64,000 bases of DNA from Dryococelus australis (taxonomy: Eukaryota > Arthropoda > Insecta > Phasmatodea > Phasmatidae): positions 170,710,332 through 170,774,331 of the forward strand of contig CM056998.1 in the NCBI GenBank assembly GCA_029891345.1, in the 5' to 3' direction. The stretch's first letter is position 1. Each line of letters starts with the position of its first letter. Shown in pieces: positions 25,952 through 61,511 of the stretch. The position numbers were made by a program, and so were the translations under genes. The notes below the pieces were generated by a model, which was given only the letters and a program-made list of their open reading frames with translations, was not told the origin of the DNA and made no database searches.

Positions 25952-26199
25952 TTAGTTGTGTGTTTATAATTTTTAAATTTTATTTGCTCTCCTTTTGGGG
26001 TAAAGTGATTTTTACGGCTGCATTTTTAGAACAATCTTCGGTATGTTTGTTTAGTTTTCTTCAGAATACATAACTGAAGACACATATCACATACATAAGT
26101 TTTACGTTGTTTATTATTGTTTTGTGTTGAGACTAACCTCGATAAATCTCTAATCCAAAAGTAATGCAGGTTTGTAAATTTTTTTAAATATATAGTAAA

Positions 26200-27110
26200 T
26201 TTTTGTTTTTTCCTTTTTTATTCTGTGTGAGTTTAAATGGATATAATGTGGATTTATCATCAATATAGAAACATTTATAGAAGCTTCAATTATAATTTTC
26301 TATTTTTGGTATATTATCAATTTTAGTAGGATATTCATATTTATCTATTACTTCATCAAAATTAAACCTCACATTTATATATTTGGTTACTCTATCTGAA
26401 TGGCTGTCTGCTGAAAATAATGCAGTTTAAGTCGCCCAAATAAAGCATTTTTGATTAATATTCTTTACATTTATGCATGCTTTTTTATTTTTCATCACTT
26501 CTGGTAGATCAATATATGATGAGCCTCTTCATGACTTATACTTATTTATTGCTAATTGTATTCCAATTATTTTATCTAAAGCCCATACAGAATCTCTTTT
26601 TTGAAATTAAGATAATAGTGTAATTATTTTTTGTATTATGATTTCATTTTTTTAAATATTACCAGCATTTAATACTGTATAATTGGGTGATTGAAAAGTG
26701 ATCAATTGTACTAGATTATTTTCTTGCTTATGAAAATTAGCATATAATTCAATACTGGTTTTCACACCTCTAAATAGTTTAAGATTATTGTGAATTATCT
26801 TAAATATCTTATTTTTTGCCGAGGTCAAAAAATGAATGGGCTGTACAATATTAAAAGTATTTTCAATGTTATAAGTTGATATTATACTTTTAAAAGTTTT
26901 ATTAACTAAGAATTTTTTGTTGCTTCTTCTTCTATTATTTGTTAACAAAATAATCATTATAGAATGGAAATATTTGTGTTAATTCTTTTTTGTCCTTGGG
27001 ATATGATTCATTGATATTTGCATCAGCCAAGGGTAAATTTGTAAAATTATTCTTAGTTCTTTTTATCTGCTTTCCTTTTCTCCGCCCGTCTATAACCAGC
27101 GGTATAAAAA
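26200..27110 (-). pseudogene. type-B DNA polymerase N-terminal region, element 1 (fossil)
   Basis: Minus-strand segments resemble the N-terminal part of the protein-primed polymerases of Polinton and adintovirus-like elements. Examples are KIFKIIHNNLKLFRGVKTSI (about 26,800) and the characteristic RGSSYIDLPEVMKNKKACIN, followed by a KCFIWA-type segment (about 26,410-26,530). The region is AT-rich and broken. The exonuclease and polymerase domains are not visible downstream, so most of the gene is gone. Confidence 0.7.
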
Positions 27111-27539
27111 TGGTATAAGAGTTATAATTAGATCGTTTTTCCTAGTCTAGTTATATATTATATTTTAAAATATTTAGCAATACGTCTCAACTTCCTCACA
27201 ACCTCACCGTTCAACATAGTTGTTATACAAGCCTCCCTTTTTATAGTTATATTAATAAGGAAAATAAATGTAACTGTATTTTAATTTTTATGGACTATTT
27301 GGTACCATGATGTTTTTTATCAAATAACACAAGTATTTTAGTTAATATTAATATAAAAACCATATATATTAATTATTTTGTTTCTAACCATAATTATATT
27401 TTCTTCACATATTCCTTCATATGTTCATTATACAAACTTTATATTTTATTATATTTTTGTCCTTAGTATTTTTATAAAGATAAAATAGATTTAGATTCAT
27501 TACACACTTTACATGTTTTTGCTGTATAATTATCATATT

Positions 27540-27700
27540 GAGTTTAATTTAAATTATCTAGTGCTTTACTGTGATCTTCAGAATTTTTATGTGTTTTGAG
27601 AGATGTATTATAAACATATTTTCCACATTCACAATTTACTTTCTCTTTATTTAAATCATAATTGTTTTGTACCTTTTTAGATACATTTTTTACAGATGTT
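27540..27700 (-). pseudogene. small finger-like ORF, element 1 (fossil)
   Basis: The minus strand reads CECGKYVYNTSLKTHKNSED, a CxC...H pattern seen in short zinc-finger-like proteins that I associate with polymerase-bearing elements of this kind. It is only a remnant and the assignment is by pattern. Confidence 0.4.
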
Positions 27701-27756
27701 ATAAAGGTTATCTATTGTGTTTTGATTAAAGTAAAAACTTTCTTTAATTAATAATG

Positions 27757-27758
<2 letters not shown>

Positions 27759-27812
<54 letters not shown>
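27759..27812. repeat. (AT)n microsatellite
   Basis: About 54 bases of AT dinucleotide repeat inside Polinton-like element 1. Confidence 0.95.
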
Positions 27813-27814
<2 letters not shown>

Positions 27815-28056
27815 CAAATTTTAGTATTTTCCATTTTGTGTGGTGATTCCATTTTTGTTTATTTATAAAGAAAAAAATTTAATTAAGAAAATAAAAAATG
27901 TTAAATTTAATATATTGTGTTATTTTAATATTATTATTTTTTATATTATTGTTTTTAATTTTATTATTTTTAATTTCATTATTTGAATATTATTTTTAGT
28001 TTCAAAATTTTTCCAGATTTATTGAATTTGTTTCTTTTAAAATAACTTAAACCAGA

Positions 28057-28350
28057 ATGGAGGCTCTGCTCAACAAGTTGAACAATCCATAGGAATTGAT
28101 TAAACTATGTGACCTCGAAATTGATCAATGGTATGAAGCTACAGAAATTCAAATTTACGAATCTAAGTTTGGCAAAAAAATTAATTGTATTCTAGATGGT
28201 AATTATAAAATCACTTTACCAGATTGTTATGCAAAGATAATTGATGAAAATAGCTTAAAAAATTATGAATGAGGGCAGGTTTTTAGAGTGTAAAAAGGTT
28301 TAAAAGAAATGAAAAATGGAAAATCTGTACATAATATTGAGTTTAATATT
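28057..28350 (+). pseudogene. small conserved ORF typical of polymerase-bearing elements (fossil)
   Basis: The start MEALLNKLNNP is followed by LCDLEIDQWYEATEIQIYES, then FGKKINCILDGNYKITLP. This pattern (short start, DLEI, FG, LP) matches a small protein I recall next to Polinton or adintovirus-like polymerases in insects and other animals. It is on the opposite strand to the polymerase fragment, so the two are divergent. It is broken. The function is not established from sequence. Confidence 0.5.
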
Positions 28351-28359
28351 TAAATCCTA

Positions 28360-29600
28360 TCAATCATGTTTTCATCTGATTTGCTTGGTTTAGCCTTAAA
28401 CTTGCTAGATTTTTTGCTTAATTTTGCTTGTTTTGCCTGCGTCAAATCATGTGCGCTCATTTTTGAAAAACTGCTATAACTTTCTTGTTTTTTTTTTGTT
28501 TAAAATTGCCCATTTTTGAGAAATCCTTTTTTAAAAAGCTTTTAGAGCTTAAATTTAGCCCTCAAATACATTGATTTTGACTTTTTTACATGATTTTTAT
28601 TGTTTTTTCTATTGAATTTCATATTTTGAGTTTTAAATTTTTTCCTGTACTTTTAGATAAAATAACCTTATTTAGTGTACTGCATTTTTATTGTAATTTT
28701 GAAGAAATATCCCAAAAAAGTGGGGTGATCAAGAATCGGCCTTTTACATCTACTAGCATCACCTAATATTCTGTCAATCTTAAACTTCACATAAAATATT
28801 GCTTATTTTCAATAAATCTTATCGAAGTCAAGAAACATATTATGCTTTAGATCTGATTCAAGTAAATATGCTCCAGTTGTCTTAATGTGTATATAGTTAA
28901 TCATATATGTATATTTTCTGTTAATATGTACAATGATTTTTCAATATGATTAAAAATAATTTTTTTATAAAATATTCTAAAACTTTTTGTAAAGGTCAGT
29001 GTGTATGCGGAGGTAAAACTTGTTTAATAAAAATTTGTTAAACTTTTTATATAAGCCTTGTGAATTTCTTTTTTAATTTCTGTATATTTCCCTGCATAAT
29101 GGAGGTTGGAAAGAGAATATTAATTTTATAAAGTAGAAAATACAATTTTTTTTTCTCGAGAGTTTGAATTCAGCTAGGAAGACGTTTTGACCTTGGTATT
29201 CTCAACGGTTAAAATCGTTGACCTGAACTGTCCTCCCCAGCAGGACAGACCAAGGACCTTGGTAGCTTGCTTTGTGAAAAGAGATACTTTCCCCAGGGTA
29301 TTATAAAACTGAAATGCATTCTGCAGGGGTTCGCTGGAGTCAGACTGGCACTCTCTGCGATCTCAGTTTTTGTAGTTCGTACTATAGGAAAAACATTGAA
29401 CTTTAACCTTGAAGGTTTATGACTCTGGAGAAGGAGAAGTCACACTGCTAAGACCATAGATCTCTAAACATAATGGGGTTTTCAAGTCTGGAGATATTGG
29501 CAAATGCTATATGTCTAAGATGTCTAAGCGTGTATAATGTTGCTAATAATGTTGGATCGGAAATATTACACATGATTCATTTAAGTTTAAACATATATAA
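28360..29600. other. element 1 interior without a recognised gene
   Basis: AT-rich to about 29,150. A less AT-rich part follows (29,150-29,480) with paired words such as GACCTTGGTATT / GACCTTGGTAGC. No coding motif is seen. A TATAAAA at 29,302 is noted but not supported as a promoter. Confidence 0.4.
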
Positions 29601-30010
29601 AATTGAGCATCTTTACCTTTTCCATGTACACGAAAAATGATTATCACGATATTGTATATACATTTGATTACGTGATTAATTCATTATTACTTTTATGTAT
29701 ATAAACTAATTATTATCATACATGGCCTAGCTGGTATTCGAACCTAGAAACATACTTATATTAACCATGTCTTACCCTATATGGTATATTCTATGCTTAA
29801 TTATGGAAAAGCGGTTAGAGAACTCGCTTCCAAAACTTTTACTCTGACTTTTTCATTACAACACACATACATGTTAATACAAACCAGACATCTTATAAAA
29901 ATCTCTCTGTTGAGATTAATTTATTGCATTTCATTTCTTAGGAACACAAATACACTTTTTATTAAAAAGGAATAAGTTAAATAAATATATGAAAAGGAAT
30001 TCATTTTACA
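29600..30010. repeat. right sub-terminal segment shared with element 2
   Basis: This stretch is colinear with about 56,110-56,660 of element 2. Shared words include CTTATATTAACCATGTCT, CTTTTTCATTACAACAC and AAGGAATTCATTTTRCAAGA. It contains a tRNA T-arm-like TTCGAA site near 29,736. Confidence 0.75.
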
Positions 30011-30016
30011 AGAAAG

Positions 30017-30339
30017 AAAATCATAAATTTGGCCCTTAGTCACTCTTGCACCAAACACACAAAAATCGGATTTAAAATTTTTTAATCTGATTAAAATCGG
30101 ACTACAATTTTATTGATCGGATTAAGATCGGATTACGGATTAACCCTTTCAATCAATTGACCCTTTAAATCGATTTAATTAACCCTTTCAATCAATTGAC
30201 CCGTTAAATCGATTTAATTAACCCTTTCAATCAATTGACCCTTTAAATCGATTTAATTAACCCTTTCAATCAATTTAACCCTTTGATATCAATAAAGGCG
30301 GCATCCCTTTGTATATGAAACCATCCAGTCCCTACTACT
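30017..30339 (-). repeat. right terminal inverted repeat with iterons (element 1)
   Basis: This is the inverse of the left terminus. Five or six ATCGGATT-type motifs (30,065-30,140) are followed by three tandem 39-bp units built from AACCCTTTCAATCAATT and GACCCTTTAAATCGATT (about 30,140-30,260). The conserved end follows, from GATATCAATAAAGGCGGCAT to CCCTACTACT. Confidence 0.88.
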
Positions 30340-44129: not shown

Positions 44130-44135
44130 TATAGG
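44130..44135. repeat. 6-bp target-site duplication, left (element 2)
   Basis: TATAGG is paired with TCTAGG at 61,506-61,511 (one mismatch). Confidence 0.7.
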
Positions 44136-45365
44136 AGTAGTAGAGGAGCACGAGTTCTAGATACAAAGGGATGCCGCCTGTATTGATATCAAAATGTTAA
44201 ATTGATTGAAAGGGTTAATTAAATTTATTGAGAGGGTTAATTAAATTCATTGAAAAGATTACATTTATTGAAAGGGTTAATTTTTAATTCGATTAAATCC
44301 GATCAAACAATTTTTCACCCGATTTTTATACTATGATTTTTTTGTGTTTATTTGCAAGAATGTACTAAGAGCCAAATTTATTATTTTCTTTCTTTCTTTT
44401 TGTGGGTTGGGTGCAGCTCTTGTACGTATATATATATATATGTATATATATATAATATATGGTGAGTTATGTGCAAAAGTGTCATCAGTGTATTTTTTTG
44501 GGGGGTTGGTAGTGATATTGCTCGTAGACGGTGTTGGGAGATAGGCGATTTTTAGGTAATGAAACATCAAGATAAAACGTTGCATATAGTTAACACAGGA
44601 GAGAAATTTCCGAGTGTTTAAACGCAATATATTTCAAACCAGTTCTACGTACAAATAACCTGGTGTCCTAAATAAAATTAACGATCTACAACGAAGCAAA
44701 CATGTCCCTATAAATTAAACGGCTAACGAACACAATAACAAGGTATTTGAAAAATGACACTACTTGTCTCTCGCATGTACCTGACATGATTTTAAAACAC
44801 GTTCGTCAACCTGTGAGAATGGTGACGATTATTAAAAAATAAATTAATTTAATAACACACATAAAAAAGAAAACATTTAATTTACGTCCATTCGCTCGGG
44901 AGGTCGCTGCAGTACTAACTTGGATATAGCACTAATGTCAACTTATAAGCTGTGTTGAGAGAAAACGTAACCTGCATCGGCCTATGTTTGATTATAGACT
45001 GAGGTGAAAAACTCGTAAATGAACGAAATTACAAAACGAATGTTTCCAAATAAATTAAATGGCTAACGAACACATGTACATGACAATCACTAAATGAATT
45101 ACGGAACCCAGCTATCCTGTTTTTTCTAAAAAATGAAATCGCACCAGGAACTCCCCCAAAACACACCCATCCGCCTTGGAGGTAAGTGAATGAATGAGTC
45201 GAGCTTATGTCGAGAGCCTGACTATATACATGGAGCGCGGCTGAGTTGAAATTTACGACAAAAACTCCGAATACACTACTCGTCCTGCATGATACAGCGA
45301 AACAATAATAAAAAAACAGCCTGATTTTAACGAAAGTTTTACCATTGTAAGAAGAAAAATGTATG
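44136..45365 (+). repeat. left terminal inverted repeat (element 2)
   Basis: The outer part carries iterons of the GGGTTAATTAAATTTATTGA type (44,190-44,290) and an AATCCGATCAAAC segment. The rest matches the inverse of the right arm, for example AATAACCTGGTGTCCTAAA, TTACGTCCATTCGCTCGGGA and AAATTAAATGGCTAACGAAC. Confidence 0.88.
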
Positions 45366-45429
45366 TTTGTGAAATAGTTGAATTTAATTTTTAAAATTTC
45401 AATTATGTTTGCTGAGTTTTTTGAGTGTG

Positions 45430-46130
45430 TTTTTACCAGCAGACATCTCCGTGTTGGATCTTGAGCTGCAGCAGCAGTAGTAATCTGGTTGCTGTGAGAA
45501 AATTAATTTTATCTCGAAGTTCGCTGGATTCTGCCACTGCTTGCTGTGGAGTTGTAGAGCAGCGGGAAATCATTCTTGGAGCTGGGGTGTGTCACTAAGA
45601 GGTCTTTCTACCTGCCTCTTGAAAACGTATTTGTGTCACTTGATGCTCGGTTTCATTAAATTCCCTAAGGGTTCTTCAAGTTGACCAGAGGGTCGGCAAA
45701 ATTTTCTCGAGATACTAGCTTGTTCCCTCTCGTTTCAAATTCATTCATTCGGACGTCTTCGATTTTCTCCAAAATTTTTGTAATTTTCCCCTTCAAAGTT
45801 TGTTTTTAATTATATTTTTATTTAAATGATAGTTTTTTAATGTACAAAATTTATTTTTTTCCCCCATCAAGAATAAAGCAAACAACTTGTAATTTTTTTT
45901 CCAGTTACGTGATTTTGAAATAAAACCTACAACTTACCATCACCTACGCATCTCAAGTTGCCAAGAATATTTTTCATTTAAACATTTAATATCCAGTCAT
46001 ATACAATTATTTTGTTTTCAGACACATCCCACCTCCAATCATTCATAAGCGATATAATGACATGAGGAATTTTCAAACTAATAAATTGCAAGTCACAGTA
46101 TATCATTTTAACATAGAACAATTTCATTCA
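45430..46130. repeat. conserved noncoding block, element 2 copy
   Basis: This is colinear with 23,240-23,950 of element 1. It lies between the left arm and the polymerase gene end. Confidence 0.75.
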
Positions 46131-47064
46131 AAATTAATATTTTTTTTCAAAAAATTATCCTTAACACTAAATATCTACAATGTTCATACAAAAGTTTAAT
46201 TTACAGAAGCATTTTTTCAATCACATCGTGTTTTATCAAATAAAATGAATATATACAAAAACATTTTTTTTACATATTTTAAAACAAACATATTACCAGA
46301 ATAAAATTTACAAGAATCATGTTACAAACTAAATTACCAAACATTTTTAACAATAATAAGACATTTTAACAAATACAATACAACTTACCAATGACATTTT
46401 AAGATTTAAATTAACAAACATTTCATCAAAGTTATGTACATCTTAAGACTATTTCTGTTTTCTACTTCTACTACTACTCCTACTATTACTACTACAATCC
46501 ACAATTTTATTACACAGATTACATTATTAATTATATAAAATAAATGATTAACTAAATATTTACAAATATAATACAGTAATCTGAAGATCACCATTTTAAC
46601 CTAAAACTACGCGTATATACATAATATTTACAGACTCTTGAAGAGGTCATAAAGATGCTAAATGAGGAGCGTTTTTTCTATAATTTCCAAACACTCACAC
46701 ATTCCGAATGAATGGGCGCAACACACACTAACAAGCATGCAGTTTCCAGATAATTGCTGTCACACTGCGACTTTCTTCTTCTTCTTATTTTGTAAATTCT
46801 ATTAAAGACAGTTGTAGTTAGGCAAACAGGTAGCAGCAGCAATGATGGTGTTGCAAGAGATGTTGCAAACAGTCGCAGATATTTGTAGACTTTGTAGATA
46901 TTTATAGTTATACGTGAGGTTGCTTGTGGAATAGGAGGTGTATGTGGTGGCGGCAGAAGGACGTCATCGGCGATGAGGTGTTGGTAGTTGTGGTGTCGTG
47001 GGCAGGCTGTATTTATTGTGGTGTTATAACTATTGTAGCAAGGAAAATAAAAAGAAATTACTTA
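46131..47064. other. element 2 interior without a recognised gene
   Basis: AT-rich to about 46,620, then more balanced with ACTACT/TACTACT runs near 46,462-46,500. I see no protein motif. Confidence 0.4.
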
Positions 47065-50000
47065 GGTATTCTGTAGTGCCCAGATGGCAAGGTTGATATT
47101 CCATCTGCCTTAATGTACCACTTATCATCCATACCTGACTACACGTCCTTTGTTATGCGTTCGGTGTAGACTTCATGAGCATGCAAACAGAACTGATATT
47201 GGGTCCCCAAAACCCTTGTGCAATTTTCGAGACAATCTCGATAATCCTTGTACCTGAGTGATTGCAACACATTAAATTTTACACCCTTCGCCTTACGTAT
47301 ACATTGTTCATTCGCAACAATGTATGCGTGAAGCTTAGGACGTAAATCCACAAAGTGTGTGATGATGCGACTAGCACATTCATCTTTCATTACCCCGGTA
47401 GACCTTTGTTCTAATGAGGGAATTTTTGCGGGTTTTCATGTGCATAGTTGGATGTATCAAACTGCGCCTTTAAATCTGGGGTAATTACTTTATAGATGTC
47501 CTCACAAGCAACATAAAACACCATGGAATCGGTGTCACAATAGAGGAGGTGCAAGGCTGGCGGAAGAAATTTTGTACACATCCGCTGATAATGGAATTCG
47601 TAGAGGGTTCATTTAGAAAGATCAAGAATGCCAATACCTGTGTACAAATGTTTGCTGAGCACAGCAGAACTCTTTGACATCTCGATAAGGAGATAGTTTT
47701 CATCGATAATTTGTCTTGCCTGGAATGTTGGACGCCCTAACAACTCTGCAGCCCCATAGATCGTGTCATACCTCGAAACGACTCTGATATCCCTTTCCCG
47801 GAGGACATTCTGCAAGGTTTTTTCATAAATGGAATTATTAATCAATTTGAAAAACGATTTTTCGAATTCGTTTGCAGCCTGGGCACATTTCTCAATGTTA
47901 TACTCGACGTATGGAGCCATCCAAGCTTTCTGCTCAAAGCGCAAAATGTGATGAACAGAGTCAAGTATGGCTCCATACATCAAGTACTGCCTCAGTGTTT
48001 CCCTGTGTATAACATATTTCTTTCGCAGCGCGAGTGTCAAAAGAAGTTTCTCATGTGAACCGTCCAGGGGTACACCCTTTTATGGGGCCAAAGCCAGATC
48101 GGATAGTGCATCATGACACTCGTCTGTAAAAGACACTCCCACGAAAATACAAGTGTCACCGTCATTCACAGTGTTTTAAGAATCCCAAGTTGAAAACACA
48201 TCAGCCTTAACCCACTCAAAATTGCCAATCGGAAGCTTGGATCACATTATATGACTGCACAGCCCGTTTACATCGAGATAGCATATATATTTCGATACCA
48301 CACCGGGGTCGTAGTCCTCATATATGTAAATATGGTTGACTTCTGCACTTTTTTTTAAACCTGGGTAAAGCCACTCCTAACCCCACATTATACAAAAATA
48401 TACAAGTCTGGGTCAGTCAACAACTCTAGCCGTGCACATGTCATTGATAATAAAGAGACGGAGCTGTGATGTACATGGTGGGGTCAAGACCATAATGAGC
48501 CAAACATATGGTGCTGAAATTTTCAAAAACACCTGCCAACAAACAAGTGTCCCCCACATAAGTAGTGAATGGCATACTGCAGCAAGTTTATGCAGTTGAA
48601 CGCATCCCGTGCAATGTGGACGTGAGCATAATCCTCATCGCTAATGCCTTCGCCTCTCATCATATTATGAAATGCATCCTTTGGTGGGAGTGGCTTGCAC
48701 ATCAGACTGTTTGGCGACTTAACAAAGTCATAAGGAAATACTCCCTTTCGTTTTGCCAACTCGTATTGAGTGTTTTCTGGAAACATTGAGAGGGTGATAC
48801 TCAATTGCGCAGGTCACCAATTACCTGCCAAAGTTTCTAGGTGCTCATAAATTGGAACGAATCAATAAATCATAACTCGAAATTTTGCGCCTACCCATTG
48901 AAATCAGTCCCACTGGGGATTTGTTTGGTAATGCATTCGTATTTTTCAAGGATCATTCCAATCACTTGAATTTTACCCAGGTTTTCGATTAACACGGTTC
49001 CGTCGGGTTGTGGTTTGTGATGTTCAGCCAGGGGCTTTATGAGAAAGTGAGCATCATAGTTTTGCAGGTTATGAAAAACAGCGACAAGTTGTCTTTTGGG
49101 CAGTCTGAAATTCAAGTTGCATTTATTATGTGTGCGACCCCTGATTTTACCCATCAGATGGTCATGATCTACCACAATATCATCTGTACTGAGCTTTTCC
49201 TTACAAACACGATAACTGTTCTGAGCCGCCAATCTACCTTCATCAGCAGTAGTTTTTGGCTTCATCGGAACAATCATGCTGTATATTTCTACAACACACT
49301 TTGTAAGTTCAACTAATTTATCAACTAATTGATACATACAATCAGCATCCACAAACTCAAAATAGTTAGATGAACTTGGATTGCACAAGCAGACAAAATG
49401 CTACAAACATATGGAACATGTTGGTTGATGGTAGTTGTATTACTTGTTTCATCATTAGGCAATCAAGTGGACATGGGTTTCAGGCAACATTCTAAGTCGC
49501 AATAGGTGACAAAACCCAATCTCTGCTGTTTGCTGTAATCTTTAATTTCCAAGTAATTGTCATTCCCAGTGGGGAAAGAACTGCGAACAGCTTTTTGTTG
49601 CTGGCAAAGAATAGTGTGAATTGCGAGTTTCTACTCAGTTCTGAAGTACTGTAGACAACACTCGCAAACAAATTTCCTGTTTTTATCCTTACTCAGCTGA
49701 CTACCAACCAACAGTGACAAATCTGTAATACATACAAATGTAAATGAGCGGCATTTCCACTCGCATGAATCGCCAAAATATTAACATGTTTGTCATGATG
49801 CACAGGAGAAATACACATGTGTACTACAACCCCGTCCTTTTCGCAAGTTTCGTCAATTTTATTGCTATCTTTTGTCTGCCACACTGTAGACATTGATAGA
49901 AATAGAATTGTTATCCTCAAACTTACGAATATCCTGTATGACTACGGATGTCAACAGACCTTCAGTATTCAAAACCTAGTGAGGTTTTGGATATGAAGAG

Positions 50001-50980
50001 GAATGACTGACATTTTGTGTGGCAGGAAACAATGATGCTACGACGGTGTAGTGGAAACACATTCCTTCCAGGCAGTGTACATCGATACAAGCTTTCCTAT
50101 CAGTAATAAACTTTGGTAATTTAGTGTATGCAGCAACGATGGTGAACGACCATTATTGGGACACATGTACATCTATGTATGTCAATATTTGTAGATTCCA
50201 GCCAGATCCATGCACACTAAACTCCTCAAGTCTGTTAGTAAGATAAGGGACGATGTCATCATCATAGATTAAACCCACATAGGAAGAGTGTAGGACAGGG
50301 AGGGCTTTGCTTTGAAAATAGAAGGTTTCCGAAGTGCCTTCCTCTGCCACAAGGGATTTCAAGTACTTGCCTGCTATGGTAACTGAAATTCTAATAGACT
50401 GGGATGATGCAATTATTAAGTTTATTAAAGGGACCTTCCACCTCTGAAAAAAACAAGAAAAGTCTGCATCACTCTTAAGCCTGTTGTTAACTACCCACAC
50501 ATAATTTAATCTTCCCGTGAACGCCGTAGCCATGAGCTCATATGTCAGGTCTGGCAAAGCTTCCACTGAGGCTGGGGAATCGGAAAATAAATTATTTTCC
50601 GGCTCCCTCGGTGAAATATCTCTAAGCGACTCGAAAGTCAGTTGTGAGATGGATTGAGCACTCTTCGAATCTCAAGAATATTCCGAGTCTAATAGAAATG
50701 TCATCATTCAAAATATCAACCTTGTCATGATTGGGGGAAGTGGACATGTTTCGATCTTTTGTTGTTGCTGATTTCCCCATAAGTGAATCCGTGCTCGAAT
50801 TTCATAAATAGAGATCATCATCCAAGAGGTTAACTTGTGTCTGCTTAGGCGAAGATACACTGTCTCGACAGCTTGCTGTAGACTGTCTTTGCGTCTGCGA
50901 TTGAGAATTTGAATCGCTTATGTAAAAATCTTCAAGCCAGCTGTCAATTTTTTTGCCGCTTACGCTCACCCATTAAAAAT
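47065..50980 (-). pseudogene. protein-primed type-B DNA polymerase, element 2 (fossil)
   Basis: From N to C terminus on the minus strand I see a weakly conserved N-terminal part with an HGSGW segment (about 50,153-50,566). Next is an HNH-like zinc segment, VVDHDHLMGKIRGRTHNKCN (about 49,200), then the exonuclease-type FHNLQNYDAHFL. The KGVFPYDF segment follows, and then LPPKDAFHNM (about 48,700). The motif-B-like FFKLINNSIYEKT lies at about 47,840, the catalytic CDTDSMVF at about 47,540, and the C-terminal RKAKGVKFNVLQSLRYKDY at about 47,260. This order identifies the Polinton or adintovirus-type polymerase that would copy the element DNA. The gene spans a near full length but is broken, with about ten or more disruptions. 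Confidence 0.88.
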
Positions 50981-50999
50981 ATGTAATAGTTTCTTTAGT

Positions 51000-53560
51000 T
51001 TCTCCGATATAACAGTTACAACACCACAAAAATTAAACTGAATTACCTCGTCGTTCTGACAACAGAGAAAAGTAAGCCCACTTTATTCCCTCACCACGAC
51101 ATAGTTGAAATTAATATTATAATAGTAACATAAAACACTGGTTGCCTTAATATAAATAAAATTTGATGAGGGAAGTTCTGTTTATTTGGGAAAGGCAGTC
51201 GACTACAGTGACATGTATTTACAAAATATAAGGGGGACGAGACATTCTAATAGTTCGTGGACAAAGCCAGACAGCGAATGGCCGCGAATTGAGTGCATGG
51301 GGGAGCGTGCGAAACTTAGGTCTCAAGAGCTGATGAGGGTGACAGGCGTGGAGTCGGAGCAGCGAACGAAACTTTAGACCACGCGAGCTGGGAGTTTTGG
51401 ATGCATACGGAGTGGGCGAGAGAATGAAAGAATGCGTCAGTAAACTGCAGCTGTCCGCTGCACGCGGCAGAATCCAGTCACACTCCCCTTTCCCTGCCCT
51501 TCCAAACAACCTCCCCTTCCCCCACAAGCACTCATCATGCAGACCCTAGGGGCGCACATGCGCTCCAGCGGGAGGGACAGTCGTTACTCCCCCCTCCGCC
51601 CACGCCTCTCCGTCGACTCCAGCTAACACCCAGGTGAGTTCCGATCAGACAGCTCTAGCCAATATACAATGAGTTTCCTTGACCTGGATTGCCCATGCCT
51701 GTCTTTCACATCCTTTGCATTTAAAGGAAACGCATTTGGTATACATTATTAGAATTTAAACTCACTCTATTGCATTGGAATTTAAGGACAGTTTTAAAAA
51801 AATTTTAGGCTACATCTTAAATGCGATTTTTAAAATATTGTGAGTTACTCAAGACCATCGAACTAGCGTACATTGCCAAACTTGTGTACACTGTTAAAAA
51901 TAAAGATTTATGAATACTACACCATTAAAAATTTATGAATTTTACACCTTCAAAAATACTTTCTAGGGTACACCGTTACAAATGTATGTAATTAAAAAAC
52001 CGTCAAATCATTTTCACAAATTTAATAATGAATTTTGTCTATATGCTTTAACAAGGGAGTAACAGTTTATACTAATGATAATAACTAAACAAACACTCTT
52101 AAATTAAACATTCTAGACACTTCCCAAATAAAATAATATTTTACTTAAATTGAATTAAAAAAAACTGCTTAATGCTCTATCTACTCGTAATTTTTCAACT
52201 GCTTTGAAAAATGAAATGAAAACTCTTAAAATTAACTTAGATACTCAATCCATCCCATCACATGCACATCAAAAACATTTCATTCATTAGAAATACTCTC
52301 AGCTCATTAATCCATCACTCAAACATCCATCACCAAACAACTCACTCAGAACAAGCTTGGAAGCTGAGGTTAGGCACTTGCTCCTTACACTAGGCATAGG
52401 CAGCGTAGTTCTTGCCTTGTTTTAGCTGTTTCATAATTAATACCTCATAAACACAACAACCCACCCTTAAACATCTATTAAAAACTACATAAATATAACT
52501 CAATTTTAAATAAATCGCATCATCTTTCCCCTGCACTCGTACTCACAATCAGACACCTATTTTTAAAAAAATTTCAGAATACTTGGTATTTTATTCTAGA
52601 TGGTTTTAACATATATTTGCGAGTATTTAACAGTGTAGAAAGGGCCTGAATATGAGATATTGTCTCGCCTTATGTCCATAGTGCAATACTGTGGCAGTCA
52701 TCCAGTATCTCCCTCAAAACGCTATTAAATTCCTCTCAAATATACATCAACAACCCACCTAGAATTTTTTTGACAACACTTTTCCCTGCACTCATACTTA
52801 TTGCCCCCCTCCCCCCACACACATACACACCCATACACAAATACACACCATTGAAATATCATTAATTAACACTAATAATAATAAACTACTTTTAACAAGT
52901 GGGGCGGGACCACATCGCCACAGGCACCCTATTCGACAAATTTAATTACAACTAATAATAAACTATTTTTAACAAACGGGATGGGACTATGTTGCCACAA
53001 GCACCCATTCTACTTATCATTAATTACAACTAATAATAAACTATTTTTAACAAATTCTAAAAAAAAAATGTGTTATCACATTCCAAACAAATGTTATGTA
53101 ATTTTCATTCAAGCTGGAATGATTTGCAATGATCTTAAGACAATTTCAGTCAAGTTGGAACAATTTTAAGAAAATTTAATTCACTTGGTTAAAAGTTTTA
53201 ACAATTTGCTAAGATAGTTCCATTCACTTGGTTAAAAGTTTGAATGATTTGTTAAGAAAGTTTATAACGAAATTCATAAAAAAAATTATTCAATTTGGAA
53301 CGATTTGCAATGATTTTAATAAAATTTCATTCAAGTTGTAAATTATTTACTAATAGTTTAATTAAATCACATAAATGTGAAACAATTTAAAGGAAAATGT
53401 TAAAAGTTACTAAAAGATTAAACGATTATGCAAAAAAATGTTACGGAAAGTTTTAACAAAATACCACAAAATAATTAAAAAACACTAAATTTTTAAAATT
53501 ATTCACTTACTTAAACTCTAGTAACTCTAGAAGCTGGTAGGCATGGAATGAGACCTGAAG
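51000..53560. other. element 2 interior without a recognised gene
   Basis: A GC-richer island (51,220-51,640) has short open frames on both strands but no motif. 51,700-53,500 is AT-rich. A near repeat of about 100 bp lies at 52,880-52,975 and 52,955-53,060 (sharing ACTAATAATAAACTA and TTTTTAACAA). Related AAGTTGGAACRATTTG-like words recur between 53,110 and 53,400. Confidence 0.45.
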
Positions 53561-53564
53561 CCAA

Positions 53565-53760
53565 GGACAGGCTGGTTTAGCGGTAGCTCGGTTCACACGG
53601 TGAGCATCAGGGTCCCTACCCTAGCAAGCGGTCCAATTCCCCAGCGATGCTGAAGGTCAGAAGCAATGTGCGAGGGGTTCCTTCTCCCTACCCCATCGTG
53701 TCAGGTCCCGGCAGCGCTAGGGTAACGGCGAGCAGGCCACCGATGTACTTGAAGAAATCA
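53565..53760 (+). mobile_element. possible tRNA-derived SINE
   Basis: GGCTGGTTTAGCGGTAGCTC has an A-box-like core (TGGTTTAGCGG). GGTCCAATTCCC follows about 45 bases later as a B-box-like word. The following body is GC-rich and unassigned. It lies inside Polinton-like element 2. Confidence 0.4.
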
Positions 53761-53969
53761 AGATCAGGCAGCAGCTTCTAGCAGTGCGGACAGGCTCACA
53801 GGGTGCCCGGGCGCTAGAGAGGAGGAGCTCTTGACCCCATGAAGTCAGAGCAGCAAATGACGTGGACCACCGCCATTTTACATCTCTGGGACGCTACTCC
53901 CTCAGCGCGGGGGTAGATCGGTCCCTTGTGAGGGACCTTGGCCACCCAGTTAGTTGTCAGTTAGCTTGC

Positions 53970-55060
53970 GGAGGCGAGGAGAAGCTAACCCCCTCCCTCC
54001 TCCGCACCCATCAAACTTACTTTATGCTGCAAAGCTAGCATTCTTTTACAGGATTCCCAGGGTAGCGCCTGGGAGCTGTTTCCATAGCTGAGTTTTACTC
54101 TCTTTTCCCCTGCCTATACGGGATAAAAGAGAGTGATGAATTAATTGAATTTATCAGCACGGAATTTTAAAGTTCAGGACTTGTGAAGTACTGTCACGAG
54201 CTCCCTGTGAGAGAGCTAGCGACAGTTTGGTATAAAAAGCGGAGGTTAATAGCCAAATGAAGTTAAATGATCGATATAAGTAGCTTTCCCATGACTGGAG
54301 TGGCAAGGGTTTATATAATTAAATTAATTATATGTATATTGCAGTGGTGAATTTAAGTTGCGCAAAAATTTAAATCAGTGTAGTTGTTTCAGTAATTTAC
54401 TTCATATCTTATGAGTTATTGTTAAAAACCTGTAAATAATTTGATTGGTGTGTAAATGAATGTCTGAATGTACTGTGACGAGCGACTAAAAGTCAAGTAA
54501 AACATGTTAACTCGGGGAAGTCCGAGAGCGATATGGCTGGCGCGATGCAAGCGCCAACTAGTTTTGTTAAACGTGGTCGATTTTTGTCCCGGACCGATCG
54601 GAAAATTCCGGCCAGTTTCGGGGCCTTATTTCTATGAAATCGGGCGGTATAATTGCGCTGAAGGCGTGAATTTATATTTTTAAAGTTGTTTTGAACTATA
54701 TTCCGTGTTGATAATTATTTAGACTTGTAAAATTCGAAAGCAGAGCCATGAAAACACGTCGCGTGAGTGAAGCTAAACAGTAATATAGGCCAGAGGGCTC
54801 TGATTGGCCGAGAGAACTTGGTGGGGCGGGGCTAAGAAGTTGCTCGAGAGATGGCAGCATGGTCGTTAATTTACCGTCAACAGCTTTTATTTGACACGGA
54901 AAAATCTAAATAAATTAAAAGCGGTTGTAATTAAAGTTATTAAATCTTCTTAAATAAATAATTGGTGCTGCAAAACTTAAAATGTTCAGTTGTGTACGAC
55001 TAGAATATATACGCGATTATTTCGCTCGTCATAGTGATTAATATTTATGTACTGTGTTTC
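53970..55060. other. element 2 interior, unassigned; possible LTR-like part
   Basis: The part from about 54,474 (TGTGACGAGCGAC) to 54,965 has an LTR-like composition, but no second copy and no clear primer site is present. No gene was recognised. Confidence 0.3.
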
Positions 55061-55064
55061 GGAG

Positions 55065-55770
55065 TCGCTCCAGTACAGAGTAGGGGAAATTGGTATTTGA
55101 GGGTCTAGTTGACGGGCTAGGGGGCCGCAAATGACGCCATGGCTTCGAGAAGTAGCCAGGTTCTCTCTTGTTTCTCTGTGATGTTGCGGAGTTTTAGTAT
55201 GTAGGGGTGGAAATGTGCCATGAGCGAGGCGAAGTCGCATGCTCTAAGGAATTCCATGAGTTCATGGAAATCCTGCATAACGCCTCGCATCTCTCCTGGC
55301 GAATTTCGCTGGCGAGGGCGGGACTGAGGTTGTGTATTTGGCATTGCAGGGGTGTCAAGAGTGGGAGATGGTTTGTGAATAGGCGCAGAGAGTGCCTGCG
55401 AATACGTTTTGCCGGGCTGTAATGTCCTGACTGTGAACCTGGACGGGGCAGGAGGTTGTTTTGCAGTTTTTGTCGCGATTTTCGTAGCAGCAGCAGTAGT
55501 TCTTTTCTGCACCAAGTCCAGGAACTTGGGGCAGGTTTTTGAAAGAGCTGTGTGTTCGCCTGCGCAGTTACTGCATGTCGGCTTGGAGTTGGTTTCGTTT
55601 TTTTTGCAAGCACTCTCGGGGTGAGGGCCGGCGCAGTGAGGGCATTTTGTCGGCATTGAACAGTGATTTTTTGTGTGTCCTAAAGCGAGACAGTTACGGC
55701 ATTGTGCCACTTCTGTCGGCCGTTTCTGGTATTGTCGGGGATGAACTATTGTCATATTTATCCTCGTGGA
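55065..55770 (-). mobile_element. Jockey LINE ORF1 fragment, truncated at both ends
   Basis: The minus strand encodes INMTIVHPRQYQKRPTEVAQ, followed by three knuckles (CRNCLALGHTKNHC, CPHCAGPHPESAC and CSNCAGEHTALSKTC). A Pro-rich part follows, and the ORF ends MASFAAP at 55,117. It is homologous to codons from about 32,050 to 32,850 of the full LINE here and continues a few codons into the ORF2 start (LYW, about 55,072). It lacks the 5' half of ORF1 and nearly all of ORF2, so it is not a simple 5'-truncated insertion. The ORF1 part is open with no stop. Confidence 0.85.
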
Positions 55771-55779
55771 GCACATGGG

Positions 55780-56105
55780 AACCCCTGTTTATAGGCCCCC
55801 TCTCTCCCTGGTCCCATAATTTATATTTCGTAACTAGCTTTCAAAATACATAAAACGTACATATAATGAAATTTAACCCAATTTTAAACAAATTTAATGC
55901 AATTAAATTTATTCAACGGTTTTTTTAAATAAATTTTCGGGTGTAAATGCTGGAATTTAACATCTCACATGTGTATCTATTCGGTTTTAAGCCATTCGAT
56001 TTGAATTACGTTCTTATTTAACGATTTCGTACATGAACACATGTAATTCCAATAAGGGTTTTTTGCATTCCGAGTTGTTTGTAACTTGAATTTAACACTA
56101 CGATT
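55780..56105. other. element 2 interior without a recognised gene
   Basis: AT-rich, no coding motif. Confidence 0.4.
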
Positions 56106-56109
56106 CAAT

Positions 56110-56660
56110 TACGCTTACACCCTCTCACGTACAAATGATTATCAAGCTATTGTATACATTTCAATTACGTGATTAGTTCATTTTTACTTTTATGTTTATA
56201 AATTAACTATTATTAAGCATGTCTTAGCCGGGATTCGAACTGAGGAACCTGCTTATATTAACCATGTCTCATCTGGGATTCGAACCCAGAACCTCCTTGC
56301 ATAATCTGATTACTTTACGGAGGCTGGCGATATATATCAACTTATTTAATGTGTTTATAGTGTTTTGCCCAATATTACTAAGGTTTTTTTTTTTCCAGCA
56401 GATATCTTTTGCCAGGAGAATAGTTCAAATATCTTTAATTGAATAGTAATTTTGATGAACTAATAGTTTGTTTGTTATCTGATTTTTTTCCTCTGGCTTT
56501 TTCATTACAACACTCCTTTGATGGAAACCAGACATCTTTTAAAAATTTATCTGTTTAGATAAATATTTTTTTTTCATTTCTTTGGAAAACAAGTATGCTT
56601 TTACTAAGGATACGTTAAATAAATGTACGAAAGGAATTCATTTTGCAAGATAAAATAATT
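56110..56660. repeat. segment shared with element 1, with tRNA T-arm-like motifs
   Basis: This is colinear with 29,600-30,010. On the minus strand CTGGGTTCGAATCCCAG (about 56,272-56,288) forms a perfect tRNA T-arm. A second, weaker one (CAGTTCGAATCCCGG, about 56,227-56,241) lies about 45 bases away. Element 1 keeps one such motif at the same place. No acceptor stem is present, so it is not a tRNA gene. Confidence 0.6.
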
Positions 56661-57050
56661 TTTTGAAACAAGCTGTGTTTGTATATATTTTGTCAATAAA
56701 TTTAACACTGAAACAGCATAGGATGTTAAAAAAACATACACAAGTAATGACATGATAGTAAAAAACACACACAAGTAAATATAGGATATTCCAAACAAGT
56801 ACAGGTTTCTCCAAAATTTATATACAACATTTTTTAACAATTGCAAATACACGATGCCACACAAATTACACAATTATTTTACAAAAATATATACACACAG
56901 CATTAAATAAGCAAATACATGTTGATCCAGAAATTTATGTACAACACTAGGAAGTACAGGTTGATTCAAAATATATACAAAATTTTTATTCAACAAAATA
57001 ATATAATTATAAACTCTTAGCTACTTCGGTGAACAAAGTTTCCATGCATT
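56661..57050. other. AT-rich stretch before the small-protein array
   Basis: Contains repeated words such as CAAAATATATACA and ACAAGTACAGGTT at 60-120 bp spacing, a weak tandem pattern. No gene was recognised. Confidence 0.4.
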
Positions 57051-57053
57051 TTC

Positions 57054-57509
57054 TTAATACAGGTTACATATCCCCTTCTTGAACTGTGCTTTAAAGGAGG
57101 GAGCATTTCTTATGCCCTGGCTAGATGGAAGAGGTGTGGTTGCAGTCATATAAAACACTGGACATTTCTTCTTATCTCTGCATTGAATTAGTTCGTGGCT
57201 CTTTTCGTCTCCTAGAGGAAAATAAATTACTTTTAAAAAAATACTGTCGCAGGTCTCTGTAAATTCGCGCAAAAGCCTGTTACACCATAGTGTGTAAGAT
57301 ACATTAGACTTTCCTTATTTGACACTGACATAATTATTTGTAGGATGAAAATATGTCATGTTACTACTATGACATCCAACACTCGACTGAGAAGAATTAG
57401 CAAGGAACAATGTATTGATACAATTCATTCCTTCTAGATTTGTAAGTTGAAATGTGTTTGAGGACTCAACTGCATTTTTTCTAATTTTATTGCTTGATGC
57501 ACATAACAT
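57054..57509 (-). pseudogene. small Cys-motif protein, array member E (broken)
   Basis: Two adjacent minus-strand open segments. The second contains CRDKKKCPVFYMTATTPLP, which fits the array motif C-x(2-5)-C-x(10-11)-L-P seen in the neighbours. Upstream residues include several more Cys. It lies on the same strand as members A, B and C. I know no named family with this motif. Confidence 0.5.
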
Positions 57510-57594
57510 TTTGATGAATCACACCCAGTATGAGATGTGTAACCAAGCTTGTTTTTGCTATAATGATATAAAGTATGAAGATTATTATCACATT

Positions 57595-57695
57595 ATTCTA
57601 AATACTGATAGGGTAAAACATTATCTGTATTATAAAAAATATGTTTCAAACATTTTTCTTCCTCACAATATGACATTAAAATGCATTCACCCTTA
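57595..57695 (-). pseudogene. possible array member D (fragment)
   Basis: The minus strand reads CEEEKCLKHIFYNTDNVLP, matching the same spacing as members C and E (one residue longer). It is only a short segment, so membership is tentative. Confidence 0.35.
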
Positions 57696-57700
57696 AGCTT

Positions 57701-58001
57701 ACACTTTTGATCTACTATATGAGGTCAGTACTGGTTTGCAAGACATTTAGAACTATTGCAGTTAGTTAAAGTCTAATCATGACTAGTTGGTTTACTATGT
57801 GGTGTCAAAACTTGAGAGAAATACGTAGATTTGAAATCAATATCTGACCCACATATTTCCTTAACAACATAATGTGAACTTGCTATGATATAAGTTACAG
57901 AATACAAACCTTTAGTAATAAACACATACTTTCATATAGGAGAGAACATTATTCTGAATTAGCCACTTCACACCCATATAAATTACACATGGAAGGAAAA
58001 A
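57701..58001. other. spacer in the small-protein array
   Basis: No motif recognised. It could hold a further decayed member or untranslated sequence. Confidence 0.3.
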
Positions 58002-58355
58002 CTAATCCTCCTGAACGGCGATTCCCTGATGAGACCTGGTGAGTTGGTAGGCGATTACTCCATATCCACACTCATCGTCTATCTCCTCGCTAAGATTGGC
58101 ACTCATCAAATCTTCTAATGTTGTTGGTAAGTCACTGTCAGGGTGAAGGTATCTCACAGCACAATCGTTGCATGCTATTCTTTCACCAGAGTGAATGCCG
58201 AGACTGTTGTCGAAAGTGTAGCACCAATGTTTTATATCAATGCAGATGTGAACTTGTAAAATACCGTCATACGGTTTAAAGAAGACTCTTCTGTACTCAA
58301 TTTGCAGGACTTCATATATGTCTGTAGGGTCGAAGATTCTAGCCATAACTGACAA
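58002..58355 (-). CDS. small Cys-motif protein, array member A (looks whole)
   Basis: A 117-residue frame with an ATG start (MSVMARIFDPTDIYEV). It contains YRRVFFKPYDG, then LQVHICIDIKHWCYTF, then CNDCAVRYLHPDSDLP, and ends acidic. It is the best preserved member of a tandem family in element 2. Member B shares YRRV.F, LQ...C....HWC and L.PDS.LP in the same order. No signal peptide or membrane segment is evident. The family is not known to me, so no function is assigned. Confidence 0.6.
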   Translation of the reverse strand: MSVMARIFDPTDIYEVLQIEYRRVFFKPYDGILQVHICIDIKHWCYTFDNSLGIHSGERIACNDCAVRYLHPDSDLPTTLEDLMSANLSEEIDDECGYGVIAYQLTRSHQGIAVQED

Positions 58356-58507
58356 TTTAATACTGAGCGCTCTCTATCATATAGCTGTTGTTTCATCACT
58401 TTTTCTCATTTTTAACTGTTCTTACTGTGCCAAACTTTACAATTCCACATGCCACAGGGAGTAGTTAATTATTGGTCATCAATATACATAAAATGTTGTT
58501 TGTTGTT

Positions 58508-58869
58508 TCATTGTTCCGCCCAAACTGTAGTAAGAGAGCAGCAACTGTACTCCTTCTGCATTATGTATTTGATTTTCTTGTAGGACACACGTTTCGTGAT
58601 GTATCCATTTTGTGCTTCAAATTCTAGTTGACCATCGTTACAAGGTAGTTTGCTGTCAGGATATAAATTATATAAAGGATAAGAATTTCGCTCATAACGT
58701 ACGTCGAAAACTTTTAAAGTATAGTCAGGACTGATTAACAAGAAACACCAATGTTCATCTTTGTTACACATCTGTATCTGTAGCAGACTATCTTCTTCAA
58801 GTGGAAACCACACTCGCCTGTATCATGGATAACATTGACATAAGGAAGTGATGAGTCGAACCTCTCCAT
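58508..58869 (-). pseudogene. small Cys-motif protein, array member B (broken)
   Basis: A minus-strand segment with RRVWFPLEEDS, LQIQMCNKDEHWCFLL and LYPDSKLP aligns along member A. Its C-terminal half (GYITKRVSYKKIKYIM) and the downstream PCGMWNCKVW align with member C. It is broken in a few places. Confidence 0.55.
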
Positions 58870-58925
58870 CGTAACTGAAGCTCCGGTCTACAGTTCTCTC
58901 TTTATATAGTTATATTTGGAAAATA

Positions 58926-59261
58926 TTAGTTCTTCGACATTGAATTGGCTAAATGAAATTTACAGACACAGACATTCCTATTCCAAACCTCACAGTCCCA
59001 CATCCCACAAGGTGCTCTTATGCCTTGCATTTGCATGATGTGTTCCTTATTATTGCATGTTTCAGTCCATAAGGTGTTGCTGTCGTAAAACTCTGTACTC
59101 AATTTATATTTTATTTGATGAAAATCTGATTCTTTGGTTATTTTTTCACTTCTATTTGTAAAACACAAGTCCCAAGAAGAACAGGGCAGTTCGATATCAG
59201 GTCGCATATTAAAAACCAAACAGTCTTCGTCTTCATAACACAACACTCGTTCTGTATACAT
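58926..59261 (-). pseudogene. small Cys-motif protein, array member C (5' part missing)
   Basis: The open frame has CYEDEDCLVFNMRPDIELP, HQIKYKLSTEFYDSNTLWTE and PCGMWDCEVWNRNVCVC. It corresponds to the second half of members A and B plus a C-terminal Cys-Trp segment. The first half is replaced at about 59,262 by a repeat segment shared with element 1 (22,540-22,650), so the copy is truncated by rearrangement. Confidence 0.55.
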
Positions 59262-59830
59262 GTTTGTAGAAATAAAATATAAAGTTTTTGTTGAAATGTA
59301 AAATCTTTGGGATTATCTTGTGGGGATTAATGAAACATCATTTTAACTTTAGGGAATATAAATTTCATTGGCGGGACTTGTGAAATTTTTTTCGCTGTAC
59401 GTAAGACAGGGTAATGCATTCGGAAGAGTCCAAACTTCTCTGCACGAAGGTGCGGGACCTTGGATCGACAACAAGGTCAGGGTGCTTAGACCAGGGAGTT
59501 CTCCAGCCATCAGAAAGATGCGCTCTGGGCTGATGTACGGGGAGAGGGTCGGGGGTACGTAGCCTTGAAAAAGAACTCTCTTTTCGCGCAAAGACGCAGA
59601 CTGGATAAGGGGAGGGGGAGGGAGCCTGCTGCTGGCAGCACCGACGTAAGCAGTTCTCGTGGGTTAGTGCCATGTTAGTTCTTCGCAAACACTTGTCTTG
59701 GATAGACGTATACACCAGCTCTCCCAACTTCACTGGGCAGGTCGACAGTTGGTGGGATTTCGTGCCACGATCAAGAGGTTCAGTAGTCAGCAGGCTTCGG
59801 AGAGTGTAGGCATATCATACGTCTGAGTGT
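59262..59830 (-). repeat. segment shared in inverse orientation with element 1 (21,710-22,650)
   Basis: The inverse of this stretch carries CCCCACAAGATAAT, ACATTTCAACAAAA and a C-rich middle like the tandem-repeat region of element 1. It ends at the ACACTCTCCGAAGCC block shared by both. Confidence 0.7.
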
Positions 59831-60129
59831 TATCCGCGATTCTCGTTTTAATATAAAAATAATCTCATAACTTTTTTTAAATTATCGGGAAAAATTATTT
59901 TCGTGTGTTAAACATATATAGTGTGTTTACGTGTAAATCCTGTTTCTGAGTTCGGTCGACGAAACTTCGCAGCATTTTCAACTGTTATTTCAGTAACTAG
60001 TGCCGTGAATTTCACAGATTTAACGGAAATATTTGTAGTACGTCCTTTATTTTAAATAATTAAAAATAATATATTGAACATTTCTATAAAGTGTTGTGGT
60101 ATTAATCCATCCGAATCTCCTTACGCATC

Positions 60130-61505
60130 GATGGAAAAAAAATTGTGTTGAAAGTGAATTCTTATTCTTACAATAATGAAACTTTTCGTTAGAAATCATG
60201 CTAATTTTTTTTTATCGTTTTTATGTCTGTTGTAGGACGAATAGTGTATTCAGAGTTTTTGCCGTAAATTTAAACTCAGCCGCGCTCCACGTATATAGTC
60301 AGGCTCTAGACGTAAGCTCGACTCATTCATTCACCAACTTCCCAGGCAGAAGGATGTGTTTTGGGGGAGCTCCTGGTGCGATGTCATTTATTTAAAAAAA
60401 ACAGGACAGGTGGGTTCCGTAATTAATTTAGTGATTGTCATATACATGTGTTCGTTAGCCATTTAATTTATTTGGAAACATTCGGTTTGTATTTTCGTTC
60501 CTTTAAGAGTTTTTCACCTCAATCTATAATCAAACATGGACCGACGCAGGTTATGTTTGCTCTCAACACAGCTTATAAGTAGATATTAGTGCTATATCCA
60601 AGTCAGTGCTTCAGCGATCTCCCGAGCGAATGGACGTATATTAAACGTTTTCTTTTTTATGTATTTTAATAAATTAATTTCTTTTTAATAAGTCATTTAA
60701 CGTATGGATTCCGTTTCAAAATTTTCCTCACCAGTCTTACAGGTGGACGGACATGTTATAAAATCATGTCAGGTACGTGGGAGAGGCATCAAGTAGTGCC
60801 ATTTTAAAATACCTTGTTATTGTGTTTGTTAGCTGTTTAATTTATAGGGACATTTTTGCTTTGTTGTAGATTGTTAATTTTCTTTAGGACACCAGGTTAT
60901 TCGTAAGTAGAATTCGTTTGAAATATACTTCATGTAAACACTCCGAAATTTATCTCATGTGATAACTATACTTAATGTTTTCTCTTTCTGTTTAATCACC
61001 AAATAATGGCCTATCTCCCAACACCGTCTACAAGCAATATCACTACCAACTCAAAAAAATTACACTTATGCAATTCTTACACAAAACACATCACACATAT
61101 GCCCTGTCTCAAACCCGTCACATCCCATGGACTGCCAGAGCTCCAAGGGTGAGTATGTACCTGAGCTGATCCCCAACCTACAAAAAGAAAGAAAGAAAAT
61201 AATAAATTTGACCCTTAGTACACTCTTGCAACAAACACGAGAAAATTATCTGATTAAGATGGGATTAAAAATTTCTGATCGGATTTAATCGGATTAAAAT
61301 TAACCCTTTCATACTTTTAATCCTTTCAATACATTTTGTCCTTTCAATCTATTTAATTAACCTTGTAAATCAATTTAATTAACTCTTTCAATAAATTTAA
61401 CTAGCCCTTTCAATAAATTTAATTAGCCCTTGCAATCAATTTAACCCTTTGATATCAATAAAGGCGGCATCCCTTTGTATCTAGAACCCGCGCGCCTCTA
61501 CTACT
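60130..61505 (-). repeat. right terminal inverted repeat (element 2)
   Basis: This is the inverse of the left arm, including AATAACCTGGTGTCCTAAA. Its outer part has several AACCCTTTCAAT / CAATTTAATTAA iterons (61,295-61,450). The conserved GATATCAATAAAGGCGGCAT and the CCTCTACTACT end follow. It differs from the left arm by about a tenth. Confidence 0.88.
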
Positions 61506-61511
61506 TCTAGG

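Follow-up and report, generated by a model that had tools for sequence, protein, structure and literature searches.

The vertebrate Mavericks are among the known systems closest to the element considered here. In the accessible part of their description they have an (AGT)2 end motif, 6-bp target duplications and inverted repeats of 46-1,447 bp, span 12.7-24.6 kb, and encode PolB, integrase, ATPase, protease and capsid genes, with accessory genes beside this core (PMC8097293). Among insects, the Mavericks of Spodoptera cells carry a PolB with a predicted endonuclease VII domain alongside integrase, ATPase, protease and CAP genes, and the accessible part of that report gives no homologue of the PY (DJR) capsid protein (PMC5803895). 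Non-autonomous Maverick/Polinton elements devoid of the genes needed for transposition are described as well, again in a source available in part (PMC6327564). Here we analyze a 64,000-nucleotide stretch of the genome of the insect Dryococelus australis (the window; C6:170710332-170774331), with genome searches made in the 3.4-Gb, 646-contig assembly to which it belongs. We propose that the array of small minus-strand genes in this window is probably an accessory cassette of one large, old, integrase-less and capsid-less Maverick/Polinton family. In this cassette, three adjacent paralogous genes (C, B and A) are followed by a fourth, longer gene with a diverged relative in its E half; the whole lies in the interval from the right inverted repeat to PolB and shares the strand of PolB.

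An earlier note on this DNA had placed the array inside a Polinton-like element, and such an element does surround it (Table 1), with inverted repeats that have (AGT)2-type ends, a 6-bp target duplication, and the remains of a PolB gene with an endonuclease VII-like part. The two copies of the target duplication are alike at 5 of 6 bases, and the inverted repeats, which are 1.2-1.35 kb long, show 15.2% mismatches over 1220 ungapped sites (K2P 0.171). The window copy is collinear with copies at C4:125140061-125161486 and C14:85261578-85282054, which were read in separate pieces and are also collinear with each other. The first of these is flanked by CTTAGG/CTTAGG (6/6 alike) and the second by GCCCTG/GCCCCA (4/6 alike); the end bases of all three copies were chosen by eye, and in the C4 and C14 copies one of the two ends deviates from the (AGT)2-type motif. 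Read along the gene strand, the element begins with the right repeat, followed by two unnamed coding stretches (Q and R), C, B, A and D/E, and continues through a poorly coding spacer to PolB with its endonuclease VII-like part and then the left repeat. A later insertion in the spacer of the window copy holds a non-LTR retrotransposon ORF1-like frame (55120-55788), which resembles a frame at 31808-32791; it has no Pfam match above cut-off, and its name is a reading by eye.

Table 1. Features of the window, by position in the 64,000-nucleotide stretch
Feature	Position	Strand	Remarks
Maverick/Polinton copy, 17.4 kb	44136..61505	- (genes)	AGTAGTAG at both ends, inverted repeats; collinear with two other copies
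Target site duplication, left	44130..44135	.	TATAGG
Left terminal inverted repeat	44136..45360	+	44132-45360 matches 61509-60158 at 77.8%
PolB gene remains	47142..50671	-	collinear with L030/L033/L034
Endonuclease VII-like part of PolB gene	48894..49400	-	PF02945, E 2.6e-5, just above cut-off
Later insertion	53867..55764	-	in spacer; absent from two collinear copies
D/E gene	57054..57900	-	E 57054-57518, diverged member; D ~57595-57900, upstream part
Gene A	57952..58373	-	core 58005-58373; open frame of segment A 58002-58355; tail 57952-58071 in another frame
Gene B	58412..58887	-	core 58511-58822; 58508-58813 open in one frame; start 58738-58887 in another frame; tail frame-broken ~58412-58466 (read by eye)
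Gene C, start missing	58926..59312	-	open frame of segment C 58926-59261; ~150 aa in other copies
Right terminal inverted repeat	60158..61505	-	partner of left repeat
Target site duplication, right	61506..61511	.	TCTAGG
Second, shortened relative of the same element	20699..30339	+	ends AGTAGTAGGGGCTGG / AGTAGTAGGGACTGG (AGTAGTAG ends); partial matches

The window contains three further features of note. The shortened relative of the element is flanked by CAACAT / CAATAT (5/6 alike), and the array profile finds no match within it. A 579-aa open minus-strand frame of short repeats lies at 24286-26025 and is, from its letters, probably a coding-like minisatellite. At 31447-35490 are frames that, read by eye, resemble those of a non-LTR retrotransposon, with ORF1 zinc knuckles followed by a reverse transcriptase-like frame.

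The array genes in the window are damaged to different degrees. Segments A, B and C can each be read as an open frame on the minus strand, with B and C damaged at the start. Collinearity with two other loci (L029 and L031) indicates a deletion at 59263-59265, which took Q, R and the start of C; gene B is frameshifted, and the tail of gene A is lost to another frame. The E segment consists of two frames (57057-57314 and 57318-57518), and segment D, as delimited in the earlier note (57595-57696), contains three stops. D and E are one longer gene, since at locus L010:2058-2612 a single open frame reads through D into E; the length of this gene is put at more than 300 aa, an estimate that combines open pieces taken from several copies.

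A, B and C appear to be individual genes, each encoding ~150 aa in which Cys, His and Trp residues are conserved. A methionine stands just ahead of the conserved start in 12 of 14 A frames examined, and the frames end in stop codons; these 14 frames, like the rows of the profile comparisons below, were picked because they are open. It is also conceivable that a single gene has C, B, A and D/E as its exons, as their short spacers, single strand and fixed order would allow, and a start codon is seen in just three open B frames and one open C frame of other loci, where several other B and C frames are cut or frameshifted before the start point. Against this stand the methionine and stop codons of the A frames and the repetition of the same whole domain in each member, and we consider the exon reading quite improbable.

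Profile comparison establishes that the members are related. Profiles were built from open frames of A (8), B (8) and C (6), drawn both from this window and from loci elsewhere in the genome, and aligned with hhalign. The A-B comparison gave a probability of 97.5 and a score of 74 (column shuffles, n=20, up to 16.7), A-C a probability of 97.4 and a score of 71 (n=20, up to 15.9), and B-C a probability of 99.7 and a score of 150 (n=20, up to 19.6). E matches the joint A+B+C profile over 80 collinear columns (probability 74, score 37.9; shuffles, n=30, up to 18.8). Against single profiles it scores 32 with A and with C (probabilities 42 and 47) and weakly with B (score 19.6, probability 1.6). 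The earlier claim that A, B, C and E are relatives of one family is thus borne out, in the case of E by the joint profile, and the pattern C-x(2-5)-C-x10-L-P can be read letter for letter in A, C and E, as had been noted. D, which had been counted as a separate copy, does not keep that standing: its score against the joint profile (16.2) falls inside the shuffled control (up to 18.6), and it is the upstream part of the E frame, not detectably a member of the family. A D-E profile match (probability 94) is an artefact of overlapping alignments, both of which contain one common stretch of sequence, and was rejected. Putative internal half-repeats in one member score 19.3-19.5 against shuffles of up to 17.0 (probability ~9).

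The differences between paralogues are distributed unevenly over the codon. In all three pairs, position 3 differs most and position 2 least (positions 1/2/3: A-B, 0.61/0.47/0.70; A-C, 0.58/0.47/0.73; B-C, 0.48/0.38/0.60), a pattern that would fit selected proteins and toward which the protein-guided codon alignment itself leans. Among copies of the same gene, codon periodicity is slight: only two 150-base windows exceed z 3 (4.1 over A and 3.5 over E). Selection among copies was considered and set aside, the windows beyond those two lying below z 3 and being treated as decay. Because there is so little periodicity among copies, selection on the small genes is visible mainly between paralogues.

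No named family was recognized. The array members have no match above cut-off in Pfam, none better than E 0.024 in PHROGs and none better than E 2 among PDB sequences, and scans of IMG/VR with A, B, R and PolB, which were seeded by short exact peptides and reach close relatives, confirmed no contig. The family is therefore unnamed in the sense of being without a match in these four libraries, in agreement with the earlier note. A zinc ribbon is not found at the cut-off, the best candidate being Zn_ribbon_19 (E 0.015; 15.9 bits against a cut-off of 30.8), which 2 of 27 members match weakly. Candidate relatives in phage records, one match to A at E 5 and three to PolB at E 0.5-0.7, were disregarded. 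The predicted model of B, made from an alignment of window B, C and A, has a pLDDT of 42 and gives no usable fold. In open-licence literature on Polintons, adintoviruses, split or satellite elements and tandem accessory paralogues, no such cassette appears by title and start of abstract.

The array is abundant in the genome. A occurs at at least 150 places (from 6,514 first-look candidates) and B likewise at at least 150 (from 7,923), both copy numbers being lower bounds. A 15-base sequence from one end of the C4 copy is present 1,324 times, compared with 5 occurrences of its reversed control; the window ends differ from this 15-mer, and the ends counted may include copies without the array. 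Among the 100 ends listed of these 1,324, taken together with the gene matches of contig C1, all 4 gene-end pairs on that contig closer than 30 kb face inward, and neighbouring ends within 40 kb form 7 inward pairs, 1 outward pair and 1 pair facing the same way.

The order of the array is constant. We examined 48 other loci (L010-L028 and L036-L064), which are best matches of A or B, each spanning only 1.5 kb either side of the match, with members called at 50% identity or more; the window itself (L009) and a duplicate place (L035, the same as L017) were left out before counting. The members found follow the order R-C-B-A-D-E on one strand at 48/48 loci, with the full set at 26/48; B is seen at 48, A at 47, C at 44, R at 43, E at 40 and D at 32. 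Because the order is the same throughout, the duplications predate the spread of these copies. The earlier suggestion of a lineage-specific expansion is accordingly not borne out, and such constancy speaks against an arms-race expansion that is still under way. Q and R, the coding stretches upstream of C that are missing from the window, can be read at L031:5598-6873 and L052:2464-2949. R is present at 29/29 loci of the B search; nothing exceeded the Pfam cut-off (the best match being Curto_V2, E 0.0024), and PDB gave no match.

Linkage to neighbouring genes is equally regular. R and A lie within 30 kb of each other in 18 pairs, of which 17 have R upstream on the same strand at 1.54-1.73 kb and the 18th is 24 kb apart; this count covers 149 of 150 R matches, the one on a small contig being left out. 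A and PolB lie within 30 kb in 10 pairs, all on one strand with PolB after A, the distance being 7.0-10.0 kb in nine pairs and 1.5 kb in the tenth. By chance, about 0.40 pairs are expected in each case. This is the linkage to type-B polymerases that the earlier note had named as support for its reading. Early linkage counts took 43 of 150 B matches and 47 of 54 PF03175 matches; counts on matches picked by hand (27 PolB and 9 R; 16 DJR and 11 integrase) gave way to the full lists.

These data also bear on whether the array is a host gene family that was picked up or hit by repeats, so that its link to the Polinton would be accidental. Such an origin would be in keeping with the finding that A and B have no relative in IMG/VR, where close relatives could be reached. 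It is contradicted by the occurrence of each query at at least 150 places, by the same neighbours at 48 loci and by the narrow range of distances to PolB in 9/10 pairs, and it is nearly refuted. Nor was A seen as an ordinary host exon, the outcome that the earlier note had named as contrary to its reading; of 19 other A loci that were read, 19 have B and 18 have C.

Over the array, copies differ from the majority by ~6-18% per site. Given this divergence, the slight codon periodicity and the diverged inverted repeats, the array-bearing copies are old.

PolB is the core gene that the array family has kept. L033:1-876, collinear with the PolB remains of the window, matches PF03175 above cut-off (E 8.1e-8) and L034:1532-2140 does so below it (E 3e-4), and the window piece 47612-48079 on its own has no Pfam match. 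The PF03175 matches supply the PolB that marks a Maverick/Polinton, and protein priming by this polymerase is putative. Across 87 frame pieces of the three end-to-end copies, Pfam (E <=0.01) finds PolB (2 pieces) and endonuclease VII (2), with two unconvincing single matches (GAPES2, 6.7e-4; zf-MYST, 8.5e-3), and no integrase, ATPase, protease or capsid gene. Since these three copies are decayed, such a scan could overlook a gene that survives only as fragments. We also searched the array elements with this genome's own integrase, DJR capsid, PLA2, protease-like and ATPase-like frames, of which the protease and ATPase queries are themselves weakly identified; the best match had E 0.049, and the same frames do find the other capsid loci. 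With the Polinton integrase of this genome as query, the best match in array copies has E 0.48. The array family would appear to be integrase-less and capsid-less by loss, and not by failure to see the genes.

Genes of the missing kinds are present elsewhere in the genome. A DJR capsid domain occurs at at least 126 places and an integrase core is found as well (rve, E 2.3e-11), and DJR and integrase matches form 8 pairs on opposite strands, 5.1-6.0 kb apart. Their pairings with array A or array PolB number 0, 0, 0 and 1, which is the chance level. The single case of a DJR match near a PolB match (28 kb apart) is likewise at chance level, as are R and B matches at C6:53.83 Mb, which lie 7.7 and 15.1 kb from a DJR match on the other strand, and no integrase neighbours R or B in the hit lists. 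An 8.7-kb element on contig C7 (C7:77435616-77444285; L065:5617-8000 and L066:1-6286) contains DJR capsid, PLA2 and integrase frames, protease-like and ATPase-like frames that fall below the Pfam cut-off, a 6/6 target duplication and AGTAGTAG at one end; no PolB was found in it. In IMG/VR, a 69-kb viral contig (L069; IMGVR_UViG_3300031760_000045) matches the DJR capsid protein distantly, its best segment reaching 38% over residues 104-160 (E 2e-4).

It could be proposed that array and capsid elements are halves of a divided Polinton system, with PolB and the array on one element, integrase and capsid on another, and the two replicating together. The C7 element, with its integrase, capsid, PLA2, target duplication and single AGTAGTAG end and no PolB found, would suit such an arrangement, as would array PolB being unlinked to DJR or integrase matches. 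What speaks against it is a second PolB lineage, which forms 3 integrase-PolB pairs and 1 DJR-PolB pair within 13 kb (0.26 and 0.21 expected by chance; 97 of 100 matches, the second pieces of three genes being left out). Because this lineage lies near integrase and DJR matches, complete Polintons probably exist in this genome and the C7 element may be a deletion form of one. Furthermore, the two types of element share few end bases, in a motif common to Mavericks in the accessible part of their description (PMC8097293), and the exact C7 end is rare (4 occurrences, against 1 for the control). We therefore regard a divided system as very unlikely. The second PolB lineage includes long stop-free frames and in this differs from the decayed array family, which suggests that it was active more recently or is a gene kept by the host.

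We return to the reading of the array as an accessory cassette of an old Polinton family. Having kept its PolB, this family could have copied itself by protein priming. Given that no integrase, packaging ATPase, protease or capsid gene is seen in it, the family probably relied on other Polintons of the same genome, which would have mobilised it in trans by supplying integrase and perhaps particles. The small proteins would be intracellular factors, encoded by genes that, to judge from their constant order, were duplicated early and diverged into separate jobs before the family spread. As to the job of the cassette, our first choice, held tentatively, is that its products interact with the host cell or with Polintons acting as helpers. 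Our second choice, and a rather doubtful one, is help in PolB replication, in which the small proteins would be machinery such as DNA-binding or terminal-protein partners of PolB and not anti-host factors. The strand and linkage that the small genes have in common with PolB favor such a role, and so does their constant order, since an arms race would be expected to make the gene content vary. It is weakened by the description, in the accessible part of one account, of eukaryotic PolBs of this kind with a terminal-protein domain of their own (PMC11071308); nor does any library that we searched tie the array family to DNA binding.

A bolder version is that the array family is a satellite, a Polinton without integrase and capsid that lives off complete Polintons and brings its own four-gene cassette of a new family, whose products act on the helper or on host silencing. 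We think this unlikely. If true, it would provide an animal counterpart of phage satellites and virophages, and an animal case in which one virus-like element may live on another. If false, the analysis still accounts for an abundant repeat that may be broken up into many small 'genes' by automated annotation. In addition, the accessory genes of Polintons gain an unnamed protein family, located in a PolB-only family that is itself abundant.

Tandem, diverged small paralogues near a genome end are also found in large DNA viruses, for example as the MGFs of African swine fever virus. The likeness of the array to these is one of layout, and kinship is not claimed; no MGF-type name appeared in the Pfam scan of array members. 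Closer comparison is with Mavericks themselves. The array element resembles those of vertebrates in its ends, 6-bp duplications, inverted repeats, size, PolB and possession of accessory genes, and differs in that no integrase, ATPase, protease or capsid gene was found in it and in the array family itself, which is absent from the accessible part of the vertebrate description (PMC8097293). With the Mavericks of Spodoptera cells it has in common a PolB with an endonuclease VII domain, and the capsid loci of this genome resemble those elements in their PLA2-type protein and integrase and, more weakly, in an A32-like ATPase and an adenovirus-type protease; unlike the array element, the Spodoptera elements are described, in the accessible part of that report, without a tandem small-gene cassette (PMC5803895). 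Finally, the array family is likewise without transposition genes when set beside non-autonomous Mavericks, as far as the available portion of their description goes, but it has kept PolB and a private cassette and is therefore not a simple empty derivative (PMC6327564).
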